Source of the DNA: Treponema sp. J25
GTDB taxonomy: Bacteria > Spirochaetota > Spirochaetia > Treponematales > Breznakiellaceae
Direction of reading: 5' to 3'
DNA length: 34,092 nt
Assembly (NCBI RefSeq): GCF_004343725.1
Contig: NZ_PTQW01000015.1
Coordinates: 1 to 34,092 of the forward strand
Shown: positions 30,400 to 34,092 of the stretch, one piece after another
Layout: every line of letters starts with the position of its first letter
Position numbering within the stretch: the first letter of the stretch is position 1
The notes under the pieces: generated by a model
Seen by the model: the letters and a program-made list of their open reading frames with translations, nothing else
Databases searched by the model: none
Told to the model about the DNA's origin: nothing
Translations under genes and position numbers: made by a program

Positions 30400-31509
30400 A
30401 TGGCGTTAAACTGTGGCATTGTGGGACTTCCGAACGTAGGAAAGTCCACCATTTTTTCTGCCCTTACCTCGGCCCCCGCCGAGGCGGCGAATTATCCCTT
30501 TTGTACGATTAACCCCAATGTGGGCATTGTGGATGTCCCCGATTTTCGTTTAAAAAAATTGGCGGAAATTTTTAATCCCAAACGGGTCGTCCCCGCTACG
30601 GTAGAATTTGTGGATATCGCCGGACTGGTAAAGGGGGCAAGTAAAGGAGAGGGTCTGGGAAATCAATTTTTATCCCATATTCGAGAAGTGGGGGTTATCG
30701 CCCATGTGGTTCGCTGCTTTGATAACCCTGACATTATTCATGTGGCCAACCGGGTAGACCCCTGGGATGATATAGAAACCATCAATACAGAACTGGCCCT
30801 GGCGGACCTCGAAACCCTTCAGAAGCGCCGGGAGCGGGCCGAGCGGGCCCTCAAGGTCCAGGGAAAGGACCAGCAAAAACAGGCGGAACTTACTCTTCTT
30901 GCAATCCAGAAGGTTCAGGCGGTGCTGGAACAGGGAAAGCCCGCTCGCAGTGCGCCCCTTTCGGAAGAAGAGCGAGTTGCCCTCTATGATGCCCATCTTA
31001 TCACCATGAAGCCCCAAATTTATGTGTGTAACGTGGATGAACAGGGAATGAGGGGCGACAATCCGTACGTGGCCCAGGTGCGTTCTATTGCCGCTGCGGA
31101 GGGGACGGAGGTAATTAAGATTTGTGGCAAATTCGAAGCGGAACTGGCGGACCTCGAAAGCGAAGAGGAAAAACGGGCCTTTTTAGCGGAATTGGGCCTC
31201 GAAGAATCGGGCCTTTCGCTCCTTATCCATGCGGCTTATCGGCTTCTGGGATTACGGACCTTCTTTACGGCAGGAGAGGATGAATGCCGGGCCTGGACCA
31301 TCCATGCGGGCGATACGGCTCCAAAGGCCGCCGGGGTTATCCATTCAGACTTTGAGAAGGGGTTTATAAAGGCCGAGGTTTATTCCTTCGAAGATCTCAT
31401 CACCTATGGATCGGAAGCAAAAATAAAGGAGGCCGGGAAGTACCGAATCGAAGGGAAAGAATATGTAGTCCAGGATGGGGATATCATGTTCTTCCGCTTC
31501 AATGTGTGA
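30400..31509 (+). CDS. ychF: Redox-regulated ATPase YchF (OLA1 family)
   Basis: The 369-aa P-loop protein has GLPNVGKS (9-16), the switch segment DIAGLVKGASKGEGLGN and, in place of the guanine-specific NKxD, NVDE (in YVCNVDEQG). That change gives YchF its preference for ATP. The last ~85 residues form the TGS domain (the terminal FFRFNV motif is typical). It binds ribosomes and acts in stress and translation quality control. Length is standard. It is followed after 47 bp by the HD-domain gene, probably in one transcript. Confidence 0.96.
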   Translation: MALNCGIVGLPNVGKSTIFSALTSAPAEAANYPFCTINPNVGIVDVPDFRLKKLAEIFNPKRVVPATVEFVDIAGLVKGASKGEGLGNQFLSHIREVGVIAHVVRCFDNPDIIHVANRVDPWDDIETINTELALADLETLQKRRERAERALKVQGKDQQKQAELTLLAIQKVQAVLEQGKPARSAPLSEEERVALYDAHLITMKPQIYVCNVDEQGMRGDNPYVAQVRSIAAAEGTEVIKICGKFEAELADLESEEEKRAFLAELGLEESGLSLLIHAAYRLLGLRTFFTAGEDECRAWTIHAGDTAPKAAGVIHSDFEKGFIKAEVYSFEDLITYGSEAKIKEAGKYRIEGKEYVVQDGDIMFFRFNV

Positions 31510-33168: not shown

Positions 33169-33197
33169 ATATTATTACTTGACATGAGGGTTGTCAA
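33169..33197 (-). promoter_or_regulatory. Minus-strand promoter of the divergent pair
   Basis: Minus strand: TTGACA (33197-33192), 17-bp spacer, TAATAT (33174-33169). The predicted start is near 33162, giving a ~28-nt leader before ATG 33134. It overlaps the plus-strand promoter at 33179-33207. Confidence 0.7.
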
Positions 33198-33207
33198 ATC
33201 CCATACT
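33179..33207 (+). promoter_or_regulatory. Plus-strand promoter of the divergent pair, leaderless geometry
   Basis: TTGACA (33179-33184), 17-bp spacer, CATACT (33202-33207), then 6 nt to ATG 33214. It shares 19 bp with the opposed minus-strand promoter. The two TTGACA boxes form an inverted repeat 7 bp apart. Confidence 0.7.
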
Positions 33208-33801: not shown

Positions 33802-33817
33802 CAGGTTTGTAAACTTT

Positions 33818-33979
33818 CTATTGAACTTTTCCCTTTAATCGATAATCGATGGGCGCTTCCTTGGTCCAGTTTTTGCTTTTATCATATCCCCGCCAAGGAC
33901 CGATGACGAGCAAACAGGTGAGCATGTACCAAGACTTTCCGCGGAGATCAGGGTCAGGAATATCGTTTATGTTGATACA
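33818..33979 (-). CDS. Doubtful small reading frame or gene remnant
   Basis: On the minus strand a frame reads NDIPDPDLRGKSWYMLTC, then LLVIGPWRGYDKSKNWTKEA to a TAG at 33820-33818. The composition looks protein-like, with one possible membrane segment. A TATAAT (33984-33979) lies just upstream. There is no ATG before the internal one at 33925, which would give only 35 residues. It could use a non-ATG start, be frameshifted, or be chance. Confidence 0.3.
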   Translation of the reverse strand, partial: CININDIPDPDLRGKSWYMLTCLLVIGPWRGYDKSKNWTKEAPIDYRLKGKVQ

Positions 33980-34015
33980 TTATACCTCATAAATACCGTA
34001 ACAGGGCTAGTTCAT

Positions 34016-34063
34016 TGGGTTTTTGGGGTAGGCCCCAGGGATACTTCTATACTTAAAAACCCA
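34016..34063. repeat. Inverted repeat near the right edge
   Basis: TGGGTTTTT (34016-34024) and AAAAACCCA (34055-34063) are perfect complements, enclosing GGGG-TAGG-CCCC (34025-34036). A TTGACA at 34085-34090 looks like the -35 of a gene beyond the window. Confidence 0.45.
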
Positions 34064-34092
34064 CAAATTTTCTTTCAAAAACCCTTGACAGG

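Follow-up and report, generated by a model that had tools for sequence, protein, structure and literature searches.

The intergenic DNA between two CDP-alcohol phosphatidyltransferase genes of Treponema sp. J25 very probably carries two genuine opposed sigma-70-type promoters, which are threaded through each other to form a compact divergent promoter. The window, that is, the whole stretch of DNA that was analysed, is 34,092 nucleotides long, and the coordinates of its relevant features are collected in Table 1. All four hexamers were found where the sequence-only reading had placed them, both spacers measured 17 bases, and the interpenetration that it had described was confirmed. Each -35 element falls inside the 17-base spacer of the opposite promoter, with 7 bases separating the two -35s; the -10 hexamers are the outer elements, with 27 bp between 33169-33174 and 33202-33207. 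Both strands possess a near-consensus -35 and -10 at a spacing within 16-18 bp, and the core elements of both promoters occupy the same DNA, which makes the locus a probable member of the class of overlapping divergent sigma-70 promoters. On both sides, the -35s are consensus and the -10s are weak. The predicted plus start lies 7 bases past the plus -10 and coincides with the A of the pgsA ATG, and the predicted plus and minus starts are approximately 52-53 bp apart. Taken together with conservation, these positions support the view that each of the opposed, interlocked promoters is placed to drive one phosphatidyltransferase gene; the arrangement is confirmed as real at the level of promoter sequence, and more strongly than from the single stretch of DNA alone.

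Table 1. Promoter elements and flanking genes in the window
Feature	Position	Strand	Remarks
Plus-promoter -35, TTGACA	33179-33184	+	hexamer scan; placed to drive pgsA
Plus-promoter -10, CATACT	33202-33207	+	17-base spacer; predicted start 33214
Minus-promoter -35, TTGACA (TGTCAA on the plus strand)	33197-33192	-	within the plus spacer
Minus-promoter -10, TAATAT	33174-33169	-	17-base spacer; predicted start ~33162
Palindrome TTGACA-N7-TGTCAA	33179-33197	both	formed by the two -35 elements
pgsA-like gene, CDP-diacylglycerol--glycerol-3-phosphate 3-phosphatidyltransferase, 195 aa	33214-33801	+	TIGR00560, 7drj
Divergent CDP-alcohol phosphatidyltransferase (PF01066), 263 aa	32343-33134	-	predicted leader ~28 bases

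The claim that two different CDP-alcohol phosphatidyltransferases flank the promoters held, as both genes match PF01066, and the genome contains no other PF01066 gene. The product of the plus-strand gene scored 111.5 bits against TIGR00560 (cut-off 109.1) and retained an intact CDP-alcohol motif (DxxDGxxARx8GxxxDxxxD), the key residues of which are invariant among relatives; the curated cut-off and the motif together identify it as a PgsA, and its nearest solved structure is 7drj, a PGP synthase. The minus-strand partner fell below every curated family cut-off (51.9 vs. 240 bits for the ClsA-type model NF053678, 50.6 vs. 109.1 bits for the pgsA model), and by these scores it fits no characterised head-group family, while its motif residues D121, D124, G125, R129, G138, D142 and D146 vary little or not at all among relatives. 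A cardiolipin-type role is possible for this protein; PLD-type domains are confined to two long frames in the genome. A phosphatidylserine decarboxylase was not found in the genome search. Because the family models leave the partner unassigned and this decarboxylase was not found, the two phospholipid head-group pathways of the earlier proposal are not established. The partner gene runs towards a gene for an HD-domain protein (PF01966, 31560-32114), the latter preceded by a ychF-type GTPase gene (30400-31509). On the other side, the contig ends approximately 290 bases past pgsA (33802-34092), with a TTGACA at 34085-34090, and the contigs of many relatives likewise end near the downstream side of pgsA. 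In three relatives (G027, G033 and G028), a 16S-23S-5S operon begins approximately 0.5-0.7 kb downstream of pgsA, and the contig break therefore probably falls at an rRNA operon.

Conservation of both promoters in related genomes, the check that the sequence-only reading had named, was evaluated at 95 pgsA loci from the order to which this genome belongs, the locus of the window included. Thirty-five of these loci are paired with a divergent partner, and 60 have no adjacent divergent partner; the paired loci come from four families (f1, f2, f4 and f5). The plus TTGACA was perfect in every paired locus (35/35) and in 40/60 unpaired ones. The minus -35, TGTCAA at N7 or N8, was perfect in 32/35 paired loci, and one more presented AGTCAA, whereas not one of the 60 unpaired loci had a perfect TGTCAA and only two matched it at 5 of 6 positions. 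Among the 33 paired loci that keep a minus -35, the two -35s are separated by N7 in 21 and by N8 in 12, and a minus -10-like hexamer with 3 to 5 of 6 matches occurs at a spacing of 16-18, although several genomes have a weak version (TAAGCT, 3 of 6). The plus spacer of the N8 loci is 18 bases long, which is consistent with one insertion having lengthened both spacers. In the column profile of the paired loci, both -35s are conserved at or near 100%, while the intervening bases reach only 33-66%. The profile of 38 unpaired loci that keep TTGACA and a 17- or 18-base spacer displays the plus elements only, the minus elements being absent.

The loci that depart from divergent pairing follow the same pattern, with two exceptions. 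In four further genomes (G042, G056, G047 and G041; loci L040, L043, L045 and L052), pgsA and its partner stand in tandem with pgsA first; here, pgsA retains a promoter that ends 6 bases ahead of the ATG, and the minus -35 has gone. The exceptions are L109 and L110 (genomes G154 and G155), in which an intact divergent partner stands beside a degraded minus promoter. In neither of these two genomes did a good sigma-70 site turn up in its place, and since both keep an intact partner without a recognisable minus promoter, this gene can evidently be driven otherwise. On the short and weakly supported PgsA tree, built from this gene alone, pairing switches at least 11 times with TGTCAA following, and the independent contrasts contained no opposite case. 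When the contrasts were restricted to starred, that is, well-supported, branches, a mean of 3.6 of 4 agreed and 0 disagreed, which does not reach significance in a sign test (p 0.125-0.25). Judged from these alignments, the minus -35 disappears along with the partner gene.

The position of the pgsA promoter also bears on translation. The pgsA -10 ends 5-8 bases ahead of the start codon in 34/35 paired and 50/60 unpaired loci and therefore leaves no room for a ribosome-binding site, and the pgsA mRNA is predicted to be leaderless. In a sub-clade of eleven genomes, both genes are predicted to be leaderless, a gap of 50-53 bases separating their start codons; no report of leaderless divergent gene pairs was found in the open-access literature. 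Outside the order, both mRNAs are probably leaderless as well, because the predicted separation of the starts is close to the gap between the start codons in most loci. Leaderless translation of pgsA might thus be old in these spirochaetes. The pattern TTGACA-N17/18-NATANT-N5-7-ATG had 10 matches in the home genome vs. 0 in the reversed control; all ten came out on a single strand, a skew that may be an artefact of the search tool.

Beyond this order, the gene pair keeps its divergent orientation; where promoters could be recognised, most loci have them separate and back-to-back, with the minus TTGACA upstream of the plus one at offsets of -10 to -247. Because the outgroup loci mostly have separate promoters, the interlock is best read as derived within this spirochaete order, and the ancestral layout was most likely two separate back-to-back promoters; from the outgroup layouts we infer the direction of evolution. 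Once the promoters were interlocked, an indel between the -35s would alter both spacers together, and the arrangement would be held fixed. This accounts for the fixed N7/N8 distance without a switch.

We suggest that transcription from the interlocked promoters proceeds as follows. A polymerase on the plus strand would start on the pgsA ATG or one to two bases from it and yield a leaderless mRNA, while one on the minus strand would start approximately 52 bases away and transcribe the paralogous phosphatidyltransferase gene. The core of approximately 50 bp would hold one polymerase at a time, and the two genes would thus share one initiation site. This agrees with the earlier statement that RNA polymerase cannot bind both promoters at once, as simultaneous binding would be ruled out by geometry with predicted starts 52 bases apart. 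The two fixed -10 elements, together with promoter escape, would be the main determinants of the outputs, and the promoters would compete only when firing is frequent. From the DNA we infer steric exclusion, start sites, constitutive use and coupling strength alike. Because the -35s are consensus but the -10s weak, competition could be consequential or negligible, either outcome being possible. It is unlikely, in our estimation, that selection has fixed the arrangement as a regulator-free homeostat, in which exclusive capture of polymerase at the matched -35s would set the ratio of PgsA to its partner together with the noise. If this were true, two steps of phospholipid synthesis would be coupled across a spirochaete order, and the minimal form of the device would be two complete leaderless promoters in approximately 52 bases between start codons.

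The sequence-only reading had also suggested that a built-in switch could set the balance between two phospholipid head-group pathways. The evidence did not support this: the outgroup promoters are mostly separate, and neither a regulator nor a bistable or condition-dependent element was found for the promoter pair. Many relatives, moreover, have no partner or have it in tandem. Since outgroups mostly separate the promoters and many relatives lack the partner or place it in tandem, the pair does not in general need mutual exclusion. We consider it quite improbable that a graded form of the switch operates, in which mutual occlusion of polymerases makes the genes compete and so fixes how much PgsA is made relative to the partner enzyme. 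Such a switch would fit the perfect consensus of both -35s in 32/35 paired loci and the constancy of the N7/N8 geometry across four families; in addition, strengthening one -35 of E. coli bidirectional promoters created competition in most cases (PMC12825309), and the pLS20 conjugation switch includes, as one of its layers, divergent promoters that overlap and differ in strength (PMC4207663). However, at the five E. coli bidirectional promoters tested, basal transcription was too weak to cause competition, and none was seen at any of them (PMC12825309), and with weak -10s on both sides, firing at our locus may likewise be modest. The mostly separate promoters of the same genes outside the order and the lack of a regulator or condition-dependent element weigh in the same direction, and the shared spacers alone account for the frozen spacing.

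A different explanation is that the palindrome is chiefly the operator at which a dimeric repressor controls both genes, its match to promoter elements being secondary. The perfect dyad symmetry and the fixed spacing in paired loci would suit such a role, repressor operators within divergent promoters are common (Tn10 tet is an established example), and dimeric regulators can bind -35-like inverted repeats too, which counts against a pure promoter reading. However, where the partner is gone, only one arm of the palindrome is lost, and the arm that stays is the -35 with the correct spacing to its -10 and start codon. The shift to N8 in some lineages accompanies the promoter spacer, and the palindrome is generally absent elsewhere in the same genomes. 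As to the marks of a tet-type repressor-operator system, neither divergent gene encodes a regulator, both being PF01066 enzymes, and the palindrome is neither kept independently of promoter geometry nor repeated in the genome. The operator explanation is therefore very unlikely, and interlocked promoters remain the preferred reading of the palindrome. Nested inverted repeats surround the promoter core at 33135-33145/33237-33247 (11 nt, 91%) and at 33155-33163/33221-33229 (9 nt, perfect), so that both transcripts would begin with similar sequence; these nested repeats are not evident in the relatives G027 or G021. Phase-variable inversion of the promoter, which they suggested, was rejected and the repeats were treated as coincidence, the 9-base repeat not being evident in G027 and G021.

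The hexamer scan of the window found 4 promoter-like sites vs. 4.5 +/- 2.2 in shuffles, and because this count is at the chance level, the hexamer motif alone is not significant. TTGACA-N6-8-TGTCAA has 2 copies in the 3.18 Mb genome, and the pgsA site is usually the sole TTGACA-N7/8-TGTCAA in genomes possessing one. The second copy (L063, G000:C33:44169-44187) is inside a chemotaxis-type coding region, identified by eye. Its 19-mer, TTGACATTCATGATGTCAA, was also found in G035, G031 and G053, and because the home-genome copy sits in this coding region, it is probably a conserved codon run. The evidence above chance is comparative, namely that the partner hexamer is conserved in the paired loci while the intervening 7-8 bases vary. 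That the plus promoter alone is functional and TGTCAA coincidental is almost inconceivable, since, although the shuffle test by itself does not speak against coincidence, TGTCAA is perfect in 32/35 paired vs. 0/60 unpaired loci across four families and is accompanied by a minus -10-like hexamer at the correct spacing.

Overlapping divergent promoters are already known, and the tet and pLS20 cases are single loci with a regulator. In tet, the promoters answer to TetR operators, and the regulator is itself the product of one of the two genes. The overlapping divergent promoters of Tn10 tetA/tetR (Bertrand et al. 1983, cited in PMC11686294) share the same intergenic DNA and are opposed, as in our locus; here, however, neither of the two genes encodes a regulator, nor was an operator found. 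In pLS20, the core promoters of Pc and Pr overlap as well, with the Pr start 6 bp upstream of the Pc -35 box, and the promoters are of unequal strength and under RcoLS20 and DNA looping (PMC4207663), whereas our locus has two enzyme genes, matched consensus -35s and no known regulator. The bidirectional promoters of the Warman type resemble it in that one short stretch receives polymerase in two orientations, singly, and gives rise to divergent mRNAs (PMC12825309). Those promoters, however, share or overlap their -10s, with starts usually 10, 18 or 23 bp apart, and separate divergent promoters were excluded from the class by its authors (PMC12825309). Our locus falls outside it, as the -10s are on the outside, the -35s cross in the spacers and the predicted starts are approximately 52-53 bp apart. 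The predicted leaderless transcripts have a counterpart in Leptospira, where such mRNAs are common: in the transcription start site map of Leptospira interrogans, approximately 440 mRNAs begin on or close to their start codon, with a leader under 10 nt (PMC5243855); in contrast, leaderlessness here is predicted from promoter position alone, and one sub-clade has both divergent genes so. What sets the locus apart from these systems is one geometry across four families of an order, accompanied by natural controls in the form of lineages without the partner, lineages with a tandem partner and outgroups with the promoters apart. With these controls, the locus lends itself to comparative study of whether shared promoters exploit competition between polymerases or only tolerate it.
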